A stretch of DNA of 64,000 bases from Mixophyes australis. Taxonomy: Eukaryota > Chordata > Amphibia > Anura > Limnodynastidae. A program made the translations under genes and the position numbers. The stretch covers positions 184,088,448-184,152,447 of the forward strand of contig JAVHZZ010000005.1 of assembly GCA_036250195.1 (NCBI GenBank), given 5' to 3'. Of this stretch, positions 6,520 to 48,700 are shown in pieces. The first letter of the stretch is position 1; each line of letters begins with the position of its first letter. The notes under the pieces were generated by a model. That model made no database searches, was not told the DNA's origin, and was given only the letters and a program-made list of their open reading frames with translations.

Positions 6520-6774
6520 GTATTATGCTACAAGTTTCATTAAGTGTAGTTTGTGTGATGTAGTTCCTGTGTAATATGGTGTACATAGGAAAACAGAAAG
6601 ATAACTGCATGATATAGAAGGTGTACACTGTAGAGAGATTATGAAAGGTACTATTACTTTACCATTGGAATATCATTTCAGGTAATATCAAGGAGAGAAA
6701 GGGAGTATGGACTGAACGAAAGTACTGTGGAAGTTGTAGATTTTGCTTGCAGCCAGGAATGCTATATTGATTAA

Positions 6775-6960
6775 TGACAAGTGAGGCTGCATAGAACGAA
6801 TGCACTTAAAGGGCGAAAGGGTTGTTAGTAAGCTGAACTCTTACCTGAAGGGGTTAACATAGGTCTTTGGCCCGACCAATGTGTGCTCCAGTGGGAGGGA
6901 CCTTGATTGGTAAAGAAGGCTGTACTTCCTGTTCTGCCTCATTCCACAGCACGAGATCCA
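6775..6960 (+). repeat. Ngaro split repeat A1
   Basis: Starts GACAAGTGAGGCTGCATAG and runs through GGTCTTTGGCCCGACCAATG and GGGAGGGACCTTGATTGG to CGAGATCC. It matches A2 at 15157-15348 with few differences, which suggests a fairly recent insertion. It forms the 5' end of the element; CCAAT motifs within it may belong to the promoter. Confidence 0.9.
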
Positions 6961-8237
6961 GAGGGAGAGCCTGCTGCAGTTAATCGGATAAGTGTCCTTA
7001 CTTTTCTTTGACTGTTTTTTGGTTTTATTTCTGTCTCATTTCTGCTGCTTTATCCTCTATTTTTCTCCCCTGTTATCTTTTTTCATCCCGTCTTTCCTCT
7101 ATATCTTTCCTTGTATTCTTTTTTCTCCTTGCCTGCTTCCCTGCCACCCCCTCCCCCTGCCACCTTCTCATGTTTTTTTATTCCCCCCCTTTCCTCCAGT
7201 TCCCCTTCCATCTCACCATGCCCCGTCCCAAGCGCCTCACCTCCTGCCCGGCGCACCTCCGTTCCCCCTCCCCCGCCAGGTCCGGCCGCCATTTTATCTC
7301 CCAGCATGGTTCCCCGGCCATCTCTAACTCCCAGGCTTCTCACGCTGTCCTCCCAGCGGCCAGTCACCTTACCCCCATCCGCTCCTCGGCGGGGCTTCAC
7401 CCGGCGGTCAGCAGTGGTCATCGGGGTCGGGCAGCAGTATCTCGCCCGGCGGCCGAGTCGCGCATGCGCAGAACGAGAGTGCCATCGCGCCCGGCCGTTT
7501 CTGTCCTCGCTAGTGTAGGAGGAGAGGGGGGGAGGGGGTGTCAGCGGGGCCTCTCAGGAGACTGTGAGTCTCAGCCAGGTTCATGAGGGAATGAATGTAC
7601 AGCAAGTGAGCGATGCTGGGGGGAGGGGGAGAGGCATTGACACCAGCACAGAGGGTTCACATGTAGCTTCAACTATGCCTGCATCAGCGCAGGCTGGATA
7701 TTCCTCCCCTGCTAGGGGTAGTGCAGGGGGGGTCAGGATGCAGGTGTCTAGCAGCCCTCAGGGGATAGCAGTAGGGGACACATACGTTTGCTAGCGGAAA
7801 TGCGGGTGATTTTGGGGAAAGGAACGAGGCGCCTTTGTGGACCCCCCTTCATCACCACATTCTGCCATCCACGGATGAGGGGACGTACATGGCACGGCGG
7901 GCTCCCTTGCCAGCGTTCGCAGACAGGAGTAGCATTTGTTTCAGTCGGGGCCGAGATAATTTAGTTTTTGATTACAATCATTCCAGCGGCGGTAACACGT
8001 ATCAATAGTCCCCCTCATTGCGCAACCAGCCCATGCCAAGCGGTTTTTACGAAGAACCCCACCGGGCACGTTACGATAACATCCCCCTCAGCGTCGCGTA
8101 ACATCGGTAGGTTCCTATAGCCCGGGTCCCCTTGCGTCAGCAAGCCTAGAGCACGGCGGCCCAGATATAGGATCGGCGCGGCGACGCTTAGATGACATGC
8201 CTAGGTCTCAGCTTACTGCTCCTCTTTGTGTTTCAGA
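6961..8237 (+). other. Ngaro 5' leader, pyrimidine- and CpG-rich
   Basis: Lies between A1 and gag. The first part (about 7000-7250) is very T/C-rich and the rest is CpG-rich. Open frames here, such as 7008-7586 and 7083-7421, are low-complexity and overlap on both strands, so I do not call genes. A donor-like CAA|GTGAGC near 7605 and an acceptor with a pyrimidine tract (CTCCTCTTTGTGTTTCAG ending at 8237) could remove most of it from the gag mRNA. That splicing is inferred. Confidence 0.5.
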
Positions 8238-9268
8238 GCCTACGGTCACGTCCCAAGAGTCGAGGGTTGCCGGTGGAGGTCGTTCTGGGTCCGAGTCATG
8301 AGACCAGAGGTCGGCAGGGATCCGTGAGGAGTCGATCCCGGGCGCAGATGGGGCTCAGACGGAGGCAGCTAAGGATGGAGAGGCGTCTGCTGGTACCGGG
8401 AATCCTGCTCCCCATGGTGAGTCCTTTTCTGGTACAACACATAAAGTACAAATGTTGGGGTCACCAGTTCTCTCCACTAGCAGTGGTTCCTCAGATTCTG
8501 ATGATAGGCCCAGAAAACTTATCAGGTTATTGGAGACAAAATTGCTAGGCAAGCGCAGCAGGCAGATACCTCCGGCGGGGGGCGCAGAACAGCCGGTGGT
8601 TAGGAGCGAATTAGGGCAGGTCGAAACTCTGGAGATAACCCATGGTATTCGGCCTAGTGTACGGGATAGAATCAGGCGTGGGAAGTATGTGGACATGTTC
8701 GCACTGACGGGTGAGGAGGCGCTGGCTGCGGCAAGTGAAAAGTCAGGCATAGGGGAAGACAGGTTCAGATCGTTCCCTAGATGGCCGAATGCCTTCTCTA
8801 TTTTTGCTACCATTTACCTAGAGACTAGGCCCGGCGAGCAGGATGAGGTGTGGAGATATATGCACCTGATTAGTGGGATGGTAGTGAAAGACGGCCCGTT
8901 AATCTGGAGAGCATATGACGAGCTCTTCCGCAAGCGGATGAGCGAGCGCGATAAAGCTCCCTCTGGGGTCTAGGGACATCGACACATGGTTGGAACTCAT
9001 GAGACCGAGCAACCGGGGGGCCGCGGGTAGCACGGGCAGGAGGTTTCAAGGGCCGGGGAGGGTGCAAGCGACCCTCCCCACAAAAGGAAGATGCTTTGAC
9101 TTTAACACAGGCTCTTGCCAGCGAGGAGCATCTTGTAGATTCAAACACAATTGCACGTCATGTGGAGGTCTGCATCCAGCCGCCGAATGTGCAAAGGCCC
9201 GAGGAAGTGGGGGTAGAGGAAGAAGCGCAAATCCAGCTATGCCGAGTCAAGGGTCCATCGCCAATTAA
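8238..9268 (+). pseudogene. Ngaro Gag-like protein, frameshifted
   Basis: Nucleocapsid/structural protein of the Ngaro element. The main open block from ATG 8452 to 8973 contains the Ngaro Gag core: a basic KLIRLLETKLLGKRSR segment, then RIRRGKYVDMFALTGEEA, FPRWPNAFSIFATIYLE and WRAYDELFRKRM. The frame is also open upstream to an acceptor at 8237, apart from one TGA near 8298. After 8973 the protein continues in another frame from about 8960 (SRDIDTWLELMRPSNR), so there is a one-base indel near 8955-8975. The tail carries a CCCH zinc finger (C-x7-C-x5-C-x3-H, 9092-9150) followed by a CCHC-like knuckle (C-x2-C-x3-H-x4-C, ending 9190), presumably for RNA binding. It ends at TAA 9268, overlapping the start of pol. 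Confidence 0.85.
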
Positions 9269-10811
9269 TTTGGCTGAATTGGACAATTGGCTCGCTTGGT
9301 TCCCTGATAGAGACACCGCTGCTCTCCTTCATGACGGCTTTCATCTAGGCTTTAAACTCCCAGTTCAGGGCAGCATTTCTACGGCAGCGCCGGTCAATTT
9401 GAAGTTGGCGCTCGCTCTCCCGGAGGTTTTAGACTGAAAAATTGGGAAGGAAGTTGGTCTGCGTCGCATGATTGGCCCGTTCCTACTTCCGCCCATCCCA
9501 AATCTTATTTTGTCCCCGGTAGGGGTTGTCCCCAAAAAGGCAGCAGGAAAATTCAGACTGATACAGCATTTGTCGTACCCGACTGGCTTATCCGTGAACG
9601 ACGCTATAGACGCCACCCTAAGTTCAGTTAATTATCAATCGTTTGAGTGTGCCCTAGCATTGGTACAGGAATGCGGGAGGGGTTCCCTGTTAGCTAAAAT
9701 TGATATCGAATCGGCTTTCAGGTTACTGCCCCTTCACCCGGAGTCGTATCAATACATGGGTTTTCTGCATCGTGGTGGATACTATATCGATCGCTGTCTT
9801 CCCATGGGTTGTTCGATATCCTGTGCGCTATTCGAGAAGTTTAGTGGCTTCCTGCATTGGTGCATTCAGGCGGGAATGGGGTGTCGGTGGATTGCACACT
9901 ATCTTGACGACTTCTTGGTTATCGGGCCACCTGATTCCACATGTTGTCGGGATACGCTGTTTTCCACTAAGGCTCTTTTTAGGGTGCTAGGCGTTCCCAT
10001 AGCCATGGATAAAACGGAGGGCCCAGCCACGTGTCTCTCATTCCTTGGAATTGAGATCGACACTGTGGCCGGGATCTGCCGGCTCCCAGCTGATAAGGTG
10101 TCCAAGATGTGCGAGGCCATTGCAGAGGCGCTAGGTTCCAGCTCCAGTCCGCTTAGGCAGGTTCAGTCCCTGTTGGGGAGGTTCAACTTTGCCTGCCGTG
10201 TGATTCCCATGGGTAGAGTTTTCTGTAGGAAGCTACAGAGAGCCACTGCGGGTAGGAGTAGGCCGCATGCGGCAGTGCGACTATCCAAGGTTATCAGGGA
10301 AGACTTGCAAATCTGGCTCACCTTCCTCAGGGAGTTCAACGGGATGCGAATCTGGCCGTCACCACCCGTAACAAACTTTAATATCGACCTGTTTACGGAT
10401 GCTTCCGGAGCATGCGGCTTCGGCACTTACCTGGACGGTCATTGGTGCGTGGAAAGCTGGCCTGAGGAGTGGCATAGGATAGGAATTACCAAGAACTTGT
10501 TGGTCCTGGAGCTATTCCCGATTGTGGTGGCAATTGAACTGTGGGCGCCCACGTTGCGAGGGAAGCACATAGTCTTTTGGTGCGACAATTTGGGGGTGGT
10601 CCAGTCGATCAATAAACAAAGCGCTCTAGTTTTGCGCTGCCTGCAGTACGATATTTCGTTCAGGGCTAGACACGTTCCTGGGGTGCAAAATAGTTTGGCC
10701 GATGCTTTGTCCCGGGGCCAGTGGAGCAAGTTCCGTAGTCTGGCTCCCCAGGCGGATACTGTTGGTATTCCGTGTCCCTCTTGTGTTTGGCAGATCATCA
10801 AGCCGGCATAA
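9240..10811 (+). pseudogene. Ngaro reverse transcriptase / RNase H, one in-frame TGA
   Basis: Copies element RNA into DNA and degrades the template RNA. The frame opens inside the end of gag (PSPINLAELDNWLAWFPD from about 9252), so expression probably needs a +1 shift or reinitiation. A TGA at 9435-9437 interrupts it, then it is open for 447 codons from 9468. Counting from 9468: RT motif A LAKIDIESAF (D79), motif B LPMGCSISCALF (111-122), motif C YLDD (145-148); RNase H acidic residues D311 (FTDASG), E348 (LELF), D373 (WCDN) and D412 (ADALSR). All catalytic residues are present. The YLDD form and the RH domain directly after RT fit the DIRS/Ngaro group. The end overlaps the YR frame by about 70 bases. 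Confidence 0.95.
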
Positions 10812-11695
10812 GGGGTCTTGTGGAGCAAGCGGTAGCCCCTTCCACCCTGAGGACATATCAGGCAGCATGGAGACGGTGGTCACTATTCAGCGGGCAAAAA
10901 GATCAATCTGAGGCAGGTCAGCGTGACGCTATGTTAGCATTCATGTGGGAGAGATACTCCAATGGGGAATCTAGAGCCTCTATGGCATCTACTCTGGCGG
11001 GGATATCTTTCATGGCCAGGCTGCAAGGTTACACGGATGTCACCAAGGGGTTCATGATCAGCAAGGCCCTTAAGGGGTGGGCTAGGGCTCGACCCTCGCA
11101 TGTAGATGCGCGCTTACCAATTACCAACAATATTCTGGACCAGTTGATAGGGACTCTGGGTGTAGTCACAGTCGATGAATATGAGAAGCTCTTATTTAGC
11201 GCTGCGTTCTCCATGGCATTTTTCGGAGCTTTTCGGGTTTCTGAACTGGTTGCTAGATCCAGGGAGCATCAAGAGTCTGGTTTGAAGGCAGAGCATGTCA
11301 GCTTATGCGGAGGGGTTGTTGTCTGTAAAATAATTAGTTCTAAGACTGATCAGGGTGGCAAGGGAGCATGGGTGCAGTTAACTAAGCATCCTAATAGTAA
11401 CATCTGCCCGGTTAACTTAGTGTCACGGTTTATGAATATGAGACCCCAGGCCTGTTTGTTTTTATGTCTCCATAACGGCATGCCCCTGACGAAATATCAA
11501 TTTTCGGCCATTATGAAAAGGACCCTGCAGTCACTTAATCTTGACAGTACTATGTACGGGACTCATTCGTTCAGGATTGGGGCGGCCACATCTGCTGCCT
11601 TGGCTGGATCCTCCACTGAGACCATAAAAGCCCTGGGCCGCTGGAAATCCACGGCTTATAAATCTTACGTCAGGATTGACAATGTTGATGTTTGA
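10739..11695 (+). CDS. Ngaro tyrosine recombinase (intact frame)
   Basis: Site-specific recombinase that replaces integrase in Ngaro/DIRS elements, cutting DNA through a 3'-phosphotyrosine. The frame is open from 10739. Its first 307-codon stretch begins at a GTG (10772) and the first ATG is about codon 54 of that, so it is more likely reached by frameshift from pol than by its own start. Numbering from 10772: N-terminal SAM-like DNA-binding region about 20-110; catalytic Arg R155 in FGAFRVSEL; candidate beta-lysine K191 (SSKTDQGG); H265-x-x-R268 in HSFRIGAAT; W291 and nucleophile Y299 in GRWKSTAYKSYVR, spaced like Cre. The full R-K-HxxR-W-Y set is present and the frame is unbroken, unlike the other genes of this copy. 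Confidence 0.95.
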   Translation, partial: SGSPGGYCWYSVSLLCLADHQAGIRGLVEQAVAPSTLRTYQAAWRRWSLFSGQKDQSEAGQRDAMLAFMWERYSNGESRASMASTLAGISFMARLQGYTDVTKGFMISKALKGWARARPSHVDARLPITNNILDQLIGTLGVVTVDEYEKLLFSAAFSMAFFGAFRVSELVARSREHQESGLKAEHVSLCGGVVVCKIISSKTDQGGKGAWVQLTKHPNSNICPVNLVSRFMNMRPQACLFLCLHNGMPLTKYQFSAIMKRTLQSLNLDSTMYGTHSFRIGAATSAALAGSSTETIKALGRWKSTAYKSYVRIDNVDV

Positions 11696-12070
11696 TTTTG
11701 TTACGCTAATCAAAATTTTGCCTTACAGTTTTCTTTTTCTTATTTTCATTCTCTTATTGTTACCCAAACCACCCCCACTGCCCTCCCCCACCCCATCTTC
11801 TCCCTCCATTTGGTGGGCTACCCTGGGCTTTTCCGCTCGTTGCTTTGAAGCGGGGGCGCAAAGGGATTTTCACCCGGGTTTCCCTGGGCGGAAGTCCTGA
11901 TTAGTGGTGTGCTGCCGGGGTTTTTCCGGGTGTTGTTTACCTTCACCTGGGTGGCCTGCTTCCCATATGTGTCTATTTCCCTTACCCTCCCTGTTGACCG
12001 GTTATTTCCATTATGCTATCCCTCTCGTGCTTTTATGCTAAGCCTGGCCTGTCTTCCAAATTAAGGTGGC

Positions 12071-12667
12071 ATGGTTTTTAACACTGTTTTTCTGCTTCCA
12101 GGTGAGGGTGTCCCAACTAAGATGGTGTGGATCATTGGGCATTCTTTTGTGTTCTGGGCGGCTGGCCACCCCAGGTCTAATGTTATCCCAAATCACGAGA
12201 GCACCGTAATAAGTTGGTTGGGCAGAAGGGGCTTAGGCTGGCCCGATCTTATTCCATGGTTGGTGATTCTTATTAAACAGCAAGGCCCACCAAATGTCCT
12301 GGTAGTGCATGCAGGGGGCAATGATCTGGGGAAAGGAAAGTCACTAGATCTCATTATTGCGATTCGGGAAGACCTTAGGTGAATCCACGAGGCGTGGCCT
12401 GATATCATCATTGGTTGGTCGGCATTAATCCCCCGGCTAGCATGGAGAACGACTATCCCCTTAACAAAGATGACGGTTATGGTCAGGAAGCTAAATAGCG
12501 CAATTAGGAAGGTTGTGCGGTCTTTGGGAGGTGTAGTTATCAATCACCCGGGCGTAGGGGTAGAGTCACCTCACCTGTTTAGACGAGACGGCGTACATCT
12601 AACGGAAGAAGGTATGGGGTTGTTTATAGATAGTATTTGCGGGGGAGTGTCGGCGTGTCTCGCTTAG
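12071..12667 (+). pseudogene. Ngaro SGNH-type hydrolase ORF, one in-frame TGA
   Basis: A third or fourth ORF found in some vertebrate Ngaro elements, related to SGNH/GDSL esterases. SGNH signatures: block I VWIIGHSF with the candidate nucleophile Ser in GHS (codon 25 from ATG 12071); block III VHAGGNDLG (the conserved GGND Asn); block V RDGVHLTEEG (Asp-x-x-His pair). A single TGA at 12380-12382 splits the frame after EDLR; the second part continues in the same frame to 12667. A polypyrimidine tract and CAG ending at about 12101 precede the ATG at 12122, so it may be expressed from a spliced mRNA. The substrate and role in transposition are unknown. No signal peptide is evident. Confidence 0.88.
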
Positions 12668-12703
12668 TTGGTGGCGGGCTGCGGCGTCTGTGGGGCGCAG
12701 CGG

Positions 12704-13123
12704 GGTAGGAAGGCACTGCGTTCAGCGGCTGATTTGTGGGCGCACAGGTAGTTGTCGTAGGTCACTGCCCCCCTTTGAGGCACCAGCAACTCCCTTTTTG
12801 GCCCTTCGGTAAGGAGGATCCCTGTCCGGCTCGGTGAGGGAGGGCAGCATGAGTTTTAAAGGGGCAGTCACTCTGACGCCAACTCAGCGCAAGTTATGAT
12901 GGGATTTGTTCCCCGTGGTTGTGGACGTACGGCGGTGTGCGCCAGTCCACTTGTGATTTTGTGTTATCAGCTTGAGAGTTGTTTCGCAGTGCCCTTTCTC
13001 CACCACCATAGGTTTAGTTAAAGTTAAAATCATAATAAAAGCTCAGGCAATTTTTAATAACTTATACATGTCTCTGTGTGTTTATTTGCATGCAAATGTT
13101 TAGAATTCTTAGGTTGATGTAAG
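12704..13123 (+). repeat. Ngaro split repeat B1 (left part)
   Basis: Begins GGTAGGAAGGCACTGCG and matches B2 at 15385 onward almost base for base. It is cut by the solo LTR after GATGTAAG; the remaining 31 bases, through GGGAACATACACAGTGAGCC, are at 15126-15156 and adjoin A2. B1 carries a polyadenylation signal AATAAA at 13034-13039. Confidence 0.93.
13034..13039 (+). terminator. Polyadenylation signal of Ngaro (B1)
   Basis: AATAAA in CATAATAAAAGCTCAGG. The same signal occurs in B2 at 15715-15720. The repeat placement fits 3' end formation for the element transcript. Confidence 0.6.
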
Positions 13124-15120
13124 TGTCACTCACCAGACTGTGAGTGCTTCTTCCCGTATGTTTAGGAACCGTGGCCGTCCACCATCCTGAGGGTCTGCGC
13201 ATGCGCAGCCCTTTCAAAACCTTCAGTACCTGTTCCTTTAACTTAATTGGCTGATCAGGCAACACTCCCTATTTAAAGCACCTGCTGTCCATACCTCGTT
13301 GCCTGATCTTGGAGTCTCATTCCCCATGAGCCTCTGAAGGTGTTACTGTGTTTCCTCGTGTATTCAGCGCTGCTGATTCCTGTGGTTTCCAGACCACTTC
13401 TACTCCTGTGGTTTCCAGACCACTTCAACTCTCCTGTGTTTCATCGTGACTGTTAGCTGATTCCTATCCGCTGCCTCCGTGCACTACAGTCTTCAGACCA
13501 CTTCAACTCTGCTGTGTTTCATCGTGACTGTTAGCTGATTCCTATCCGCTGCCTCCGTGCACTACAGTCCTCAGACCACTTCAACTCTCCTGTGTTTCAT
13601 CGTGACTGTTAGCTGATTCCTATCCGCTGCCTCCGTGCACTACAGTCCTCAGACCACTTCAACCCTCCTGTGTTTCATCGTGACTGTTATCTGATTCCTA
13701 TCCGCTGCCTCCGTGCACTACAGTCCTCAGACCACTTCAACTCTCCTGTGTTTCATCGTGACTGTTAGCTGATTCCTATCCGCTGCCTCCGTGCACTACA
13801 GTCCTCAGACCACTTCAACCCTCCTGTGTTTCATCGTGACTGTTTGGCTGATTCCTATCTGCTGCCTCCGTGCGCTTCAGTCTTCAGCTCATCTCTACTC
13901 TCCCGTGTTTCCTCGAGACTGCTACATCTGATTCCTATCCGTTGCTCTCCGTGCTCAACAGTTCCAGCTCAGCTCTGCTCTCCCGTGTTTCATCATGGCT
14001 GCACCTGCTGGTTGCTATCCGCTACCTCCGTGTACCTGCAGAGTCCTGCTGGCTGCTACTCCTCAGTTCTACTCGTGTCTACGGCAGCTGATCCGCTCTC
14101 CGTGCTTCTCAGTGTTCCTGCTGGTCTCTACTCGCCAGTCTGCATCGGATCTGCGCCTCACTGCTTTCATCTCGTCTAGACCATCGCTACTCTTCAGGGT
14201 CCTCCAGGAGTCCAGTTCTACATACTACTGCTTCCTGAGTATTTGTTCCCCTGCTGGTCTACCTACCTGTGCGCTGCACCTACTTGATTACCGCTTCACC
14301 CTCCAGGGACTTCGCATCCTGCCGGCCTCCAGCCGTTCAGGTATCTCTGCACTCCTGTCTGACAGCCTGCTCCTGAACCACGGTATGCATACTTCTCATT
14401 GACTGTGCTGGTGTATTGCATATCTTGCTGGACTGAGTTGTTCTCCTCTGGAGCTTACTATCCGCTGAGACTTTCGCCATCATTGACTGTGTTATCTTTT
14501 GCTCGGATAGTTTCTATGACTTTATATTACTGCAGTGCTGTTCAGTCATTACTATATTGTGCATGTCATTGTGGATCAAGTTCAAGGTGCCCGTGTATCC
14601 TCTGTATTGCAGTCTCTCCCCGTGCTCCTCCTCACATATATATTCAGTGGTACAACTTGCTAGAGGCAGACCACTGATCCCTGTTTCCTGTGTCACCTGT
14701 TCCAGTATCCTCTCACATAGCAGTGGTACAACTTGCTAACGCAGACCACTGACTCCCGGATACCTCCACTTGGATTCCATTCCTTCACCCAGACAGCGGT
14801 ACAACTTGCTAACCACAGACCGCTGACTCTCATCACCTCCTCGTTCCTGTTGGACATTCCTCCTCACTATAGCAGTGGTACAACTTGCTACCGCAGACCA
14901 CTGACTACCCTCACGTGTCCTTTGTCCATTCAGTTCCTCGTGTATTACTACATATATATTACCAGTGCTGCTAGTCATAGACTTTCCTGAGCATCTCTAT
15001 CATCTGCTGTCTCCTGTTCCGTGATCACCCTGCTACCAGAGTACCATATTACCACCTATACTGCTCTGGTAAGCTTATCACCTGGTGATCCCTGAGTAAA
15101 GACTCCTAGTGCCCGTGACA
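13124..15120 (+). mobile_element. Solo LTR 2 nested in Ngaro B1 (1997 bp)
   Basis: Begins TGTCACTCACC and ends CCCGTGACA. The perfect 5-bp duplication GTAAG lies at 13119-13123 and 15121-15125. The uninterrupted site is visible in B2 (GATGTAAGGTTTACGG near 15797), so the boundaries are certain to the base. A TATA-like CTATTTAAAG lies at about 13269, and AGTAAA near 15095 may be a weak polyadenylation signal. The body is C/T-rich with a 78-bp tandem array at its 5' side and GGTACAACTTGCTA motifs repeated near 14648, 14725, 14798 and 14876. No pol is present. It is unusually long for a vertebrate solo LTR. Confidence 0.93.
13363..13850 (+). repeat. 78-bp tandem array inside solo LTR 2
   Basis: TTTCATCGTGACTGTTAGC recurs at exact 78-bp steps (TCATCG starts at 13441, 13519, 13597, 13675, 13753 and 13831), with decayed units at both ends. 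Units differ by only one or a few bases, so the array expanded recently or has been homogenised. Confidence 0.95.
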
Positions 15121-15156
15121 GTAAGGTTTACGGGAACATACACAGTGAGCCCTTTA

Positions 15157-15348
15157 TGACAAGTGAGGCTGCATAGGATGAATGCACTTAAAGGGCGACA
15201 GGGTTTGTAGTAAGCTTAGCTCTTACCTGAAGGGGTTAACATAGGTCTTTGGCCCGACCAATGTCTGCTCCAGTGGGAGGGACCTTGATTGGTAAAGAAG
15301 GCTGTACTTCCTGTTCTGCCTCATTCCACAGCCCGAGATCCCACCCAC
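15157..15348 (+). repeat. Ngaro split repeat A2
   Basis: Second copy of A1, starting right where B1 ends (CCCTTTAT|GACAAGTGAGG). It diverges from A1 after CGAGATCC. About 36 bases (CACCCACCCACTCC...) separate it from B2. Confidence 0.92.
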
Positions 15349-15384
15349 CCACTCCTAGTTGCAAGTATTTTTGGGTAATGTTGC

Positions 15385-15836
15385 GGTAGGAAGGCACTGC
15401 GTTCAGCGGCTTATTTGTGGGCGCACAGGTAGTTGTCGTAGGTCACTGCCCCCCTTTGAGGCACTAGTAACTCCCTTTTTGGCCCTTCGGTGAGGAGGGT
15501 CCCTGTCCGGCTCGGTGAGGGAGGGCAGCGTGAGTTTTAAAGGGGCAGTCACTCTGACGCCAACTCAGCGCAAGTTATGATGGGATCTGTTCCCCGTGGT
15601 TGTGGACGTATGGCGGTGTGCGCCAGTCCACTTGTGATTTTGTGTTATCAGCTTGAGAGTTGTTACGCAGTGCCCTTTCCCCGCCACCATAAGTTTAGTT
15701 AAAGTTAAAATCATAATAAAAGCTCAGGCAATTTTTAATAACTTATATATGTCTCCGTGTGTTTATTTGCATGCAAATGTTTAGAATTCTAAGGTTGATG
15801 TAAGGTTTACGGGAACATACACAGTGAGCCCTTTAT
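15385..15836 (+). repeat. Ngaro split repeat B2 (element 3' end)
   Basis: An uninterrupted copy of B1, GGTAGGAAGGCACTGCG to GTGAGCCCTTTAT, followed by unrelated TTAGTTTCAAC. It shows the intact target into which solo LTR 2 inserted in B1. AATAAA is at 15715-15720. Confidence 0.93.
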
Positions 15837-16609: not shown

Positions 16610-17338
16610 AACCATGTATGCCCACAACCTTAGTGAGGTGCAGTATGTATGTCCTGGCAGTAGTAAGGTAAGGTATGTATGTTCTGGGAGCAGTGAGGCG
16701 CAGTATGTATGTCCTGGCAATAGTGAGGTGCGGTATGTATGTCCTGGCAGTGGTGAGGTGCAGAATGTATGTCCTGACACTGGTGAGGTGCAGTATGTAT
16801 GTTCTGGCAGTAGTGAGGTGCAGTATGTATGTCCTGGTGGTAATGAGGTGCAGTATGTATGTTCTGGCAGTAGTGAGGTGCAGTATGTATGTCCTGGCAG
16901 TGGTGAGGTGCAATATGTATGTCCTGGCAGTGGTGAGGTGCGGTATGTATGTCCTTTGAGTAGTGAGGTGAAGTATGTATGTCTTAGTAGTGGTGAGGTA
17001 CAGTATGTATGTGTTGACAGTAGTGGGGTGCGATATGTATGTCCTGGCAGTAGTGAGGTGTGGTATGTATGCCCTGGCAGTGGCGAGGTGCAGTATGTAT
17101 GTTCTGGCAGTAGTGAGGTGCAGTATGTATATCCTGACACTGGTGAGGTACAGTATGTATGTTCTGGCAGTAGTGAGGTGTGGTATGTATGTATGTCCTG
17201 GGAGTAGAGAGGTGCAGTATGTATGTCCTGGCAGTGGTGGGGTGCAGTATGTATGTCCTGGCAGTAGTGAGGTGCGGTACATATGTTCTGGCAGTAGTGA
17301 GGTGCAGTATGTATGTTCTGGTGGTAATGAGGTGCAGT
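16610..17338. repeat. 30-bp minisatellite, left array (about 24 units)
   Basis: The unit is close to GTATGTATGTCCTGGCAGTA plus GTGAGGTGCA. Because 30 is a multiple of three, several frames on both strands stay open for hundreds of bases and give artefactual 10-residue repeat proteins. One 4-bp GTAT slip occurs near 17190. The array is interrupted by the hAT-like element and resumes at 19553. Confidence 0.97.
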
Positions 17339-19552: not shown

Positions 19553-19895
19553 GGTGCAGAATGTATGTCCTGGCAGTAGTGAGGTGCAATATGTATGTTC
19601 TGGCAGTAGTGAGGTGCAGTATGTATGTCCTGGTGGTAATGAGGTGCAGTATGTATGTCCTGGGAGTAGTGAGATGCGGTACGTATGTCCTTTGAGTGGT
19701 GAGGAGCAGTATGTATCTCCTGGTGGTTATGAGGTGCAGTATGTATGTTCTTGCAGTAGTTGGGTGCGGTATGTATGTCCTGGCAGTAATGAGGTGCGGT
19801 ATGTATGTCCTGACACTGGTGAGGTGCAGTATATATGTTCTGGCAGTAATGAGATACAGTATGTATGTCTTGACAGTAGTAAGGTGCGGTATGTA
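19553..19895. repeat. 30-bp minisatellite, right array (about 11 units)
   Basis: Continues the array at 16610-17338 on the other side of the hAT-like insertion, with the same unit and orientation. Confidence 0.96.
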
Positions 19896-21200
19896 CGGGT
19901 AATAACGTGGGGCCAGTGCTCAAAGTGGGAATTCAGAAGCACCGGTATGGAAATTAGATGGGAATGGCCTGGGACCTGGGGTCCGCTTTTAGCCCCCTGA
20001 AGTTTTAGGGATACCGAAAGTGTGAAATTATTTTTAGATGCTTTTAACACTGTATAGCATGATCTAAAACATATTAGTGATGCAACAGCTGTGTGTCACT
20101 CACCTCTCCTGTGTCCATTTATCTTTCTTCTGTGTCCTTTCACCTTTCATGTCTCCTTTTTTCCCCGATATCTCGTGTCCTTTCAATAATGCATAATGTC
20201 TACTCTGTTTCTTCACTTCTCCCTCTATCATCTATGTGTCTTTTCTCCTTTCCCTTTTGTTTCCTTTGCCTGACCACTGTCCCCGTGTGCCACTATCTTC
20301 ATCTCAGGTAACCCCTTCTCTACCCATTCATCTGATTTCCTCAGTCTCTTACTCACACCCTGCCCTTGGCTATACCAGTTCCAGCTCCTATTTTCATGGC
20401 GAACACATGCTAAAATGCATATGAGTTGCTGATTTAATTATATTTATTATGTGTCATCACAATGCTGGCATTTGCAATAAATATTACAAAAGTATAATGT
20501 TTAAAAAAATTGACTTACACACAGCTTTTGAGACCTTAAAAGGCAATCTCAATGGATCTCTTATTTTTCACTGCCTGTAGTGTATTTCTCACTGTGGTAG
20601 TGATCTAAACATGGTACTCCGCCCTCTGTCTTAGGGTTGTAGCCTCTGATTGGTTAAAACATACAGATTGACAGAGAACAAGCACCAATCAAAGTAATGT
20701 GGTGTGTGCGTTTTAACCAATGAGAGGATGCACATAAGAAATCAATGGACAACACTGAAATCATGAAGATTATTTCCCCTCTTCTAATTCATTCACTCTT
20801 CCAATTAGTCCGGGAGTATGTCAGTACCCTCAGTTCTGTGTCAATGCCACTACAGGGACCAGTCAGACTCTGCCCAAGGGACAGCCTCAGTGCAGCGTCC
20901 AGGAGGATAAGTCTTCTAGCTACAGATATATCGTGCAATCCTGCTCTATACAGATTATATATATTTATTTGGATTGTTGTGATCATTATGCCCAGTGTGT
21001 AGTGAGTACAGTTCTATATCTTGACTGTGCTCTGTCTGCACAGCGACCCTAAGCTCAGTAAAGCAGATACAGGCATGTAGCTTGCAATGAATTATTGCTG
21101 CACATCTATGCCCTTTCCGCAGCCTCCTGCACTGACAAGTTATAAAAGGTGGAGAAGATTTTGTCTGCAGATACATTAGCTACTAAATCCATCTCCTCCA
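19896..21200. other. Spacer with a CCAAT inverted repeat
   Basis: No gene recognised. A pair of inverted arms, TCTGATTGGTTAAAAC at 20646-20661 and GTTTTAACCAATGAGA at 20710-20725, brackets about 50 bases containing another CCAATCA. Three CCAAT-type boxes in 80 bp could be promoter-like or the ends of a small decayed element. Confidence 0.4.
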
Positions 21201-21204
21201 TTCC

Positions 21205-21537
21205 TCCTCTCATCCGCTCCCCCGCTCCTCCAGTCATCCGCTCCCCCTCTCCTCCTGTCATACGCTCCCCCTCTCCTCCTGTCATCCACTCCCCCTCTCC
21301 TCATGTCATTCGCTCCCCCTCTTCTCTTGCCATCTGCTCCCCCTCTTCTCACTCCCTCACTCCTTTTGTCTTTCGCCCCCCTTCTCCTCCTGTCATCCTC
21401 TCCCACTCTCCTCCTGTCATCCGCTCCCCCTCTCCTCCTGTCATCCGCTCCCCCTCTCCTCCTGTCATCCACTCCCCCTCTCCTCATGTCATTCGCTCCC
21501 CCTCTTCTCTTGCCATCTGCTCCCCCTCTTCTCAAAA
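21205..21537. repeat. 24-bp minisatellite with 183-bp higher-order repeat
   Basis: The unit resembles GTCATCCGCTCCCCCTCTCC plus TCCT (copies at 21440 and 21464). A multi-unit block ending TCATGTCATTCGCTCCCC, CTTGCCATCTGCTCC recurs 183 bp apart (21301 and 21484). The 175-codon frame across it (IRSPSPPV-type repeats) is a by-product of the 24-bp period; the opposite strand is open too. Confidence 0.93.
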
Positions 21538-47139: not shown

Positions 47140-48700
47140 AAAGTATCTGCACTAATTTTATCATCTCAGCCTACAACCTGTCCAATTGACCCTATTCCCT
47201 CCCTCTCCGCTCCCTCTCCTCCACTGCATGCCCACCTCTAACTCACCTCTTCAACCTGTTTCTCTCCACTGGCACATTTCCATCCTCCTTTAAATATGTG
47301 CTCATCTCACCTATTCTAAAGACACCATCTCTTGAGCCAGCCCTTTTCTCCAACTATCGCCCTTTTTCTCTCCTCCCCTTTGCCTCCAAACTACTTGAGC
47401 AATTAGTGTACAAACACCTGTTTCACTTTCTCTACTCTCATTCCATACATGACTCTCTGCAATCAGGCTTCTGCCTCCAACATTCCACTGAAACTGCTCT
47501 CACAAAAGTGACCAATGATTTTCTTACTGCAAAATCTAAGGGTAATTTCTTCATACTCATTCTCCTGGACCTCTCTGCTGCTTTTGATACTGATCACCCT
47601 CTACTCCTACACAACCTTCACTCCATTGGCCTTTGTGACGCATTTCTCTCCTGGATCGCTGCCTACCTATCAAACCACTCCATTAGTGTTTCTACCTCTG
47701 GCACTTCCTTCCCTCCACTCCCACTATCTGTTGGGGTCCCACAAGGCTCTATTCTTAGCCCTTTACTTTTTTCATTGTACACTTCTTCTCTTGGGGCATT
47801 AATTCGCTCATTCGGCCTCCAATACCTCCTCTACGCTGATGACACCCAAATCTATATCTGTTCCTCTGACCTCTCTCTTTCTGTACTATCTTGTGTAACC
47901 AACTGTCTTTCTGCTACCTCCACATGGATGTTTCAATGCTGCCTACAGCTCAACATGTCCAAAACTGAGCTTATCATCTTCCCTCCTGCCAGAGTCACCA
48001 CTTCCCTCAGATCTCCCTCACTGTCAATAACACCACAATTTTCTCGGTCTCTCACACTTGACTCTACCATCTGATTTTTTCCTCACATCCAGACTCTCTC
48101 ACAGTCCTGTTGATTAAACCTTAAAAACATTGCCAGAATACGTCCTTTTCTTACTCAACATGATACCAAAACTCTTTTCCGTTCTCTCATCATCTCCCAT
48201 CTTGACTTTTGCAACTTTCTGCTATCTAGCATTTCTGACACCCATATATCCACACTTCAATCCAACATAATGCTGCAAGACTGATCTTCCTCTCTCACCG
48301 CTGCACATCTGCTTCACCACTTTGCAAATCTCTACACTGGCTCACTGTGTCATCCAGAATCAAATTCAAATTACTCATATTTACCTACAAAGATCTCAAC
48401 AACATTTCCTCTGCATACATCTCAAATCTCATGTCAAAATACTCTCCCTCCTGCCCTCTTGGATCTACCTTTGACCTTTGCCTTGTCTTGTCTCTGGTAA
48501 CCACCTCTCATTCCTGCCTACAAGACTTCTCCCATACTGCTCCCCATTTATGGAATTCCCTACCATGCTCAATCAGACTTAACCACAGTCTTCAAATCTT
48601 TAGAAGCTCTTTGAAAACACATCTCTTTTTTAGAGGTGACTTTATCCTTGATTACACTATTCACACTAATGCACACTCACAACTATCCCAAACTCCACTC
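47140..48700 (+). pseudogene. LINE reverse transcriptase (L2/CR1 clade), broken
   Basis: Open for 258 codons from 47298 (a GTG; the frame enters from upstream without a proper start). Numbering from there: SNYRPFSLLPFASKLLE (18-34), QSGF with HSTETAL (55-67), motif A LLDLSAAFDTDHPLL (D91), motif B GVPQGSILSPLLF (146-158), motif C YADD (179-182). After the stop at 48074 the thumb/C-terminal part continues with shifts, including SSRIKFKLLIFTYKDLN and LWNSLPCSIRLNHSLQIFRSSLKTHLF (to about 48640), the conserved C-terminal signature of L2/CR1 proteins. No endonuclease domain. Catalytic residues are kept but the gene is dead. Confidence 0.92.

Follow-up and report, generated by a model that had tools for sequence, protein, structure and literature searches.

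What do the split direct repeats of a tyrosine recombinase (YR) retrotransposon represent, and how is the hydrolase gene that it carries kept and expressed? These questions are raised by a 64-kb stretch of the genome of the frog Mixophyes australis (contig JAVHZZ010000005.1, positions 184,088,448 to 184,152,447), referred to here in its full length as the window. Positions 6775-15836 of the window form one Ngaro-like retrotransposon, composed of A1, gag, reverse transcriptase (RT)/RNase H (RH), YR, an SGNH hydrolase and B1-A2-B2; coordinates are those of the window, and features lie on the plus strand unless given without a strand. Comparison with other copies in the same genome suggests that many of them possess just one half of the repeat structure, and B1-A2-B2 may be seen as a composite of two units, in which one unit with the open reading frames (A-ORFs-B) and one with a short spacer (A-spacer-B) share one B/A junction.

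Identity and repeat structure of the element

The window copy is very probably a decayed genomic copy of a frog Ngaro-like (YR) retrotransposon family, a judgement that covers both its identity and its decayed state. The element is 9062 bp long, or 7060 bp after subtraction of a nested insert and its duplicated GTAAG. A1, the 5' split direct repeat (6774..6959), differs from A2 (15156..15341) at 9 of 186 positions (95.2% identity) and begins like the similar 5' ends of other copies; the AT at 6774-6775 is common to the element and the host side. The main part of B1 (12704..13123) differs from positions 15385-15804 of B2 at 15 of 420 positions (96.4% identity). The severed tail of B1 (15121..15157), which abuts A2 at the B/A junction, is identical to 15800-15836, so that the last 32 bp of B show no difference. 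A 43-bp spacer (15342..15384), with the same layout in solo units, separates A2 from B2 (15385..15836), the 3' end of the element; other copies end likewise in CCCTTTA. An AATAAA lies in B1 (13034..13039) and again in B2 at 15715. The repeat matches are far above chance (BLAST E-values of 3e-81 for A and 0 for B), and the A and B repeats together have 24 differences over 638 positions, a Kimura two-parameter distance (K2P) of 0.039.

The element has a YR rather than a DDE integrase, RT and RNase H, the order A1...B1-A2-B2 and a hydrolase behind YR, and no methyltransferase match was obtained in a Pfam scan of seven element pieces. The first-pass annotation, made from the sequence alone, had called the locus an Ngaro element with a hydrolase, proposing alignment of A1 with A2 and of B1 with B2 as a check and naming inverted terminal repeats as a sign against it. 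The repeats align as described, and the only inverted pair found was internal (30 nt, 73%; 7239-7268 and 9015-9044), with no inverted terminal repeats. Split direct repeats also occur in PAT elements (PMC4157794), but the missing methyltransferase match, the lack of inverted terminal repeats and the position of the hydrolase, which is that of the Xenopus Ngaro-like families (PMC9210276), make it very improbable that the element belongs to DIRS1 or PAT instead. A point against the Ngaro assignment, which we nevertheless hold with high confidence, is that it comes from repeats, gene order, Pfam and folds rather than from an RT phylogeny that includes named members of DIRS1, PAT and Ngaro. The nearest named proteins are from Mixophyes fleayi (RT 88%, hydrolase 87%), and an amphibian Ngaro element with an SGNH hydrolase is an already published kind (PMC9210276).

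Two-unit, single-unit and solo copies

The sample consisted of 20 further copies from the window's own genome (3.1 Gb), chosen among those most similar in gag; of 388 candidate gag-region places in this genome, 40 were scored, the window included. Readable A and B ends were present in 19 of these 20 sister copies, and 18 of the 19 consist of a single A and a single B, provided that the pair of overlapping A pieces in L015 counts as one split match; apart from the window copy, B-A-B was seen only in L013. In a second sample, the first twenty listed zero-mismatch ORFs/B junctions on contig C1, 8 continued into A2 and 12 into other DNA. The earlier statement that this copy defines its family well is thus not borne out, the sister copies mostly lacking A2-B2. 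All 20 B/A junction loci with the fewest mismatches, including the window, run on into A and then B. Among the first 15 spacer/B places listed, one is the window and three were left out (one behind a listed B/A junction, two 680 bp apart and array-like); all 11 that were read are solo A-spacer-B units that lie in other DNA and have the same ends, TGACAAG (in some, a near variant of it) and CCCTTTA. By eye, no target-site duplication was apparent in the 18 of 20 copies whose 5' and 3' ends could both be read (L021 has no ends and the 5' end of L023 is unclear), and empty sites were not among the loci read.

Searching the genome with junction patterns at up to three mismatches gave 142 B/A, 364 ORFs/B and 409 spacer/B junctions, and none with backward controls. 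Spacer/B junctions clearly outnumber B/A junctions, although these counts are not totals of the forms, since the patterns catch subfamilies unevenly and the overlap between the spacer/B patterns is uncounted (a first pattern gave 103, the better second one 409 and a third, for a young subfamily, 52). A pattern for the A/ORFs junction was not used: it gave only 31 matches, mostly at three mismatches, in a region that varies between copies. In the young subfamily, with a B1/B2 K2P of 0 to 0.011 in nine copies, a subfamily tag marked 70 ORFs/B sites, 52 with a listed B/A junction and 18 without, and 52 spacer/B sites, 29 with and 23 without; the tag is imperfect, as L009, one of the 18, falls outside the subfamily, and the flanks of these sites are unread.

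Whether single units arise by YR resolution of a circle, by homologous recombination or by both is about evenly balanced. Resolution of a two-junction circle predicts the near parity of the two single forms. An origin purely by homologous recombination after insertion, without YR, comes close to an even prospect: B1 x B2 exchange would drop A2 and the spacer, and A1 x A2 exchange would drop the ORFs, as in the formation of solo long terminal repeats (LTRs). The isolated AB repeats of the Cafeteria Ngaro element were explained in this way by the authors who described them (PMC8547959). Also in favour of this origin, the sampled two-unit copies are very young (median B1/B2 K2P of 0.004, n=17, for copies picked among the junctions with the fewest mismatches), as expected if the second unit is lost later. 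Their terminal branches are shorter as well (0.005, against 0.015 for A-ORFs-B and 0.014 for solo units), though this comparison is an unequal one, the two B repeats of a copy being mutual sisters in the tree, and decides nothing. On the other side, the young subfamily is already rich in single units, with the two forms near parity, whereas recombination across 230 bp between 450-bp repeats should outpace that across 6 kb between 185-bp repeats. Moreover, seven solo units form a clade without other forms (support values are not given), and 24 of the 25 zero-mismatch spacer/B sites on contigs C1-C4 have no B/A junction among the matches listed. It is improbable that the window structure is instead an A-ORFs-B copy lying beside a separate A-spacer-B insertion rather than one transposition product. 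Both single forms do exist in the genome, and two pairs of B/A junctions spaced 682 and 689 bp apart fit A-spacer-B arrays; however, B/A junctions were counted 142 times, A and then B followed at every junction locus read, and in many copies B1 hardly differs from B2.

Four solo units at different places (L055, L057, L058 and L059), all within the all-solo clade of seven, have a common altered 5' end, TGAAAAG. The pattern looks as if solo units had spread by themselves.

Selection on the hydrolase

By profile, motifs and predicted fold, the product encoded behind YR (12102..12667) is assigned to the SGNH hydrolases (GDSL_2, 38.9 bits on read-through of an in-frame TGA at 12380; mean predicted local distance difference test value of the model, 93.8). 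The window copy retains the S, G, N and D-H catalytic residues, which are conserved across an alignment of 69 sequences (S in 67, G(51) in 63, N in 66, D in 67 and H in 68), and the position of the TGA is also a stop in one sister copy. The SGNH hydrolase of the first-pass annotation is present, but its frame is interrupted.

Ratios of nonsynonymous to synonymous substitution (dN/dS) were calculated for pairs among the 20 copies and the window copy, with dS > 0.03, at least 60 codons, and stop or gapped codons excluded. The median was 0.20 for the middle part of gag (8449-8970), 0.21 for RT/RH and 0.22 for YR (210 pairs each), and 0.28 for the hydrolase (134 pairs); frames shifted by one base as controls gave 1.39 for YR and 0.93 for the hydrolase. 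Because the value for the hydrolase is near those for RT and YR, we conclude that purifying selection has kept it, to the same order as these two genes. Decay after insertion would be expected to raise all of these values. Hydrolase function in Ngaro elements has been called unproven (PMC9210276); selection on the gene implies that the element has needed it.

Candidate splicing of gag to hydrolase or YR

The hydrolase is probably made from a spliced message, in which the N-terminal part of Gag is fused to the hydrolase. The Mixophyes gene model P0135 is such a fusion; its joint, found by tblastn at the protein level and placed on the window DNA, is CATG|GTGAGT (8417) with TTCTGCTTCCAG|GTG (12101), in phase. 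Splicing is proposed because the candidate donor and acceptor at this joint are conserved in the copies: the 5' splice site GTGAGT (8417..8422) is intact in 19 of 20 and ranks 17th of 3844 GT in the window, and the AG of the 3' splice site before the hydrolase (12080..12101) is intact in 18 of 19 and ranks 5th of 3889, by a simple score from approximate base frequencies. A further candidate 3' splice site lies before YR (10765..10793; AG intact in 19 of 20); it is in phase with the gag donor, as worked out by hand, and ranks tenth of 437 AG in the element, the acceptor at 10793 being weaker than that of the hydrolase. The donor is kept although the N-terminal part of gag is the least conserved (79%). 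Hexamers kept as well as the donor, itself counted, number 15 of 722 in 7774-8500 and 52 of 1192 in 7774-8970, and both third codon positions in the donor hexamer are unchanged in 20 of 20 copies, where the mean for this part of gag is 0.76.

Other gene models show related arrangements. Two Xenopus laevis models have a common gag-like stretch that leads to the hydrolase either directly or via a 103-residue cassette holding YR sequence, and many more have, by eye, a disordered gag-like N-terminus ahead of the hydrolase, P0135 being the only one mapped to gag DNA. Two proteins from short contigs (P0140 and P0171) contain the YR N-terminal motif and the hydrolase in one frame. An excess of phenylalanine upstream of the hydrolase, looked for as the possible trace of a polypyrimidine tract, was too weak to be used (16 of 259, compared with 155 of 3434 within the domain, in short-contig proteins). 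Among the titles and abstract openings listed in literature searches we found no spliced Ngaro hydrolase message; an earlier report is possible in the founding papers (Goodwin and Poulter 2004; a 2015 review).

Translation that needs no splicing, through reinitiation or an internal promoter, with the fused gene models as annotation artefacts, seems to us the less convincing account, though by no means a far-fetched one. Several observations count in its favour and against a spliced message. Annotation may stitch a gene model together over decayed frames, and the models fuse many different upstream pieces, including RT or YR fragments, to the hydrolase; a same-frame ATG lies upstream of the acceptor; the acceptor tetramer is kept no better than about half of the spacer tetramers around it (197 of 412); and none of the best 40 scored genome matches to a joined gag/hydrolase query spans the joint, so that no spliced genomic copy appears among them. 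It is harder to reconcile with a P0135 joint that coincides with a donor and an acceptor ranking among the best in the window, with the retention of both in copies whose gag N-terminal part is so variable, with a hydrolase frame that starts about 370 nt behind the YR stop, and with the two X. laevis models that differ by the YR cassette.

Coding regions and decay of the window copy

The window copy is neither intact nor typical, a status ruled out by its stops and frame changes and by the sisters lacking A2-B2. The anatomy of a complete element with four gene types, as first annotated, holds; its function does not, gag, RT and the hydrolase having stops or frame changes. The N-terminal part of gag, the candidate 5' exon, was located with P0135 by tblastn in broken frames (7774..8416) and is followed by an open middle part (8423..8970) and, in a different frame, a C-terminal part (8972..9265). 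The latter has the expected fingers, a zf-CCCH (20.7 bits against a cut-off of 20.5) with a CCHC knuckle downstream, seen by eye, but an in-frame stop and frame changes disrupt the gene. The RT/RNase H region (9267..10808) matches RVT_1 above the cut-off (E 2.3e-10). The catalytic D and YLDD, and by alignment only the acidic motifs of RNase H, are present as annotated, but a TGA at 9435, a codon that is a stop in 4 of 20 sister copies too, interrupts the frame, and RNase H is 11 residues short relative to the nearest homologue, P0001.

YR (10742..11695) was described as intact, and its frame is indeed open (10742-11692). Its predicted fold is Cre-like. A sequence search of the PDB with YR returned two matches (E 0.67 and 0.86), neither a recombinase, and one scan of viral contigs gave no match.

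Nested insert and other repeats in the window

B1-A2-B2, reported as visible in one copy, is present but not contiguous, as a 1997-bp insert (13124..15120, given without a strand) parts B1 from A2, cutting B1 32 bp before A2. The insert runs from TGTCAC to GTGACA between copies of GTAAG (13119-13123 and 15121-15125), and once it is removed, B1 agrees with B2 at all but one of 66 positions around the joint. With TG...CA ends and a 5-bp target duplication, as in LTR solos, it looks like a solo LTR. It includes a 78-bp tandem array of 7.8 copies and holds four near copies of CAGTGGTACAACTTGCTA...ACCACTGA.

Elsewhere in the window, an RT fragment of 258 aa (47298-48074, plus strand; RVT_1, 95.5 bits; LYADDTQ) resembles, by eye, that of a long interspersed nuclear element (LINE). 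One 30-bp minisatellite unit forms two arrays (16631-17338, 23.5 copies; 19553-19895, 11.4 copies), and a 24-bp repeat array (21193-21534) is open within a 175-aa frame rich in PSPPVIRS.

Comparison with known systems

The Xenopus Ngaro-like families, as described in PMC9210276, have the same genes (gag, RT/RH, YR and SGNH hydrolase), and A1-B1-A2-B2 repeats are given for DIRS-53_XT and copies of DIRS-54_XT. Their A and B measure 236 and 152 bp, against about 186 and 452 bp here, and their reading frames all overlap, whereas about 370 nt separate YR from the hydrolase in the window (PMC9210276). For the kinetoplastid VIPER/SIRE of Trypanosoma cruzi, the account in PMC6681497 gives SIRE as A2 and B2 separated by about 30 bp that belong to SIRE itself, comparable to the solo A-43 bp-B units, and names gag-like, YR and RT/RH genes but no hydrolase. 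The Ngaro element of Cafeteria burkhardae likewise has A1-ORFs-B1A2B2 copies and solo AB repeats; the main text of that paper does not use the words hydrolase or SGNH, and its account of these repeats mentions no single-unit A-ORFs-B copies (PMC8547959).

An SGNH esterase on a retrotransposon is also known from ORF1 of the zebrafish LINE ZfL2-1 (PDB 4c1b; PMC3905857), although that element is a non-LTR one. By sequence profile 4c1b is the best solved-structure match of the hydrolase (E 1.4e-6), but Foldseek places bacterial GDSL lipases and others before it by E-value (first chain at rank 17); a close kinship was set aside as too weak. The absence of 4c1b from the 50 rows listed in a further structure comparison proves nothing. 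A newt (Lissotriton) gene model, P0113, combines an RT of this element's kind with an endonuclease/exonuclease domain (PF03372) and is possibly a chimaera.

Proposed cycle and significance

In the cycle that we propose, an RNA would start in A1, end at the poly(A) signal of B2 and be reverse transcribed, and a spliced form of it would join the Gag N-terminus to the hydrolase. In the model for this group of elements, a circle results, as the internal B1/A2 junction provides the ends that the RNA lacks. The Cre-like YR would carry out recombination between the B/A junction and TA-rich host sites, and YR resolution of a two-unit circle and/or homologous recombination may yield A-ORFs-B and A-spacer-B.

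The window copy itself is an ordinary family member as a dead copy; the interest is in its sisters, with their selected hydrolase, conserved splice pair and abundant single units. The splice pair offers a testable route for making the hydrolase and, if true, would bring host splicing into the expression of a YR retrotransposon. More speculatively, Ngaro elements may use the host spliceosome in the manner of complex retroviruses, one Gag-N leader exon leading to YR or hydrolase. The split direct repeat would be a head-to-tail pair of YR units rather than a special terminus, with the pair as the copyable form that YR resolves, as a circle, into A-ORFs-B and A-spacer-B monomers; this might explain SIRE-like solo units from trypanosomes to frogs. 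The origin and the mobility of SIRE-like repeats, which PMC6681497 leaves open, become testable through the three genomic forms.

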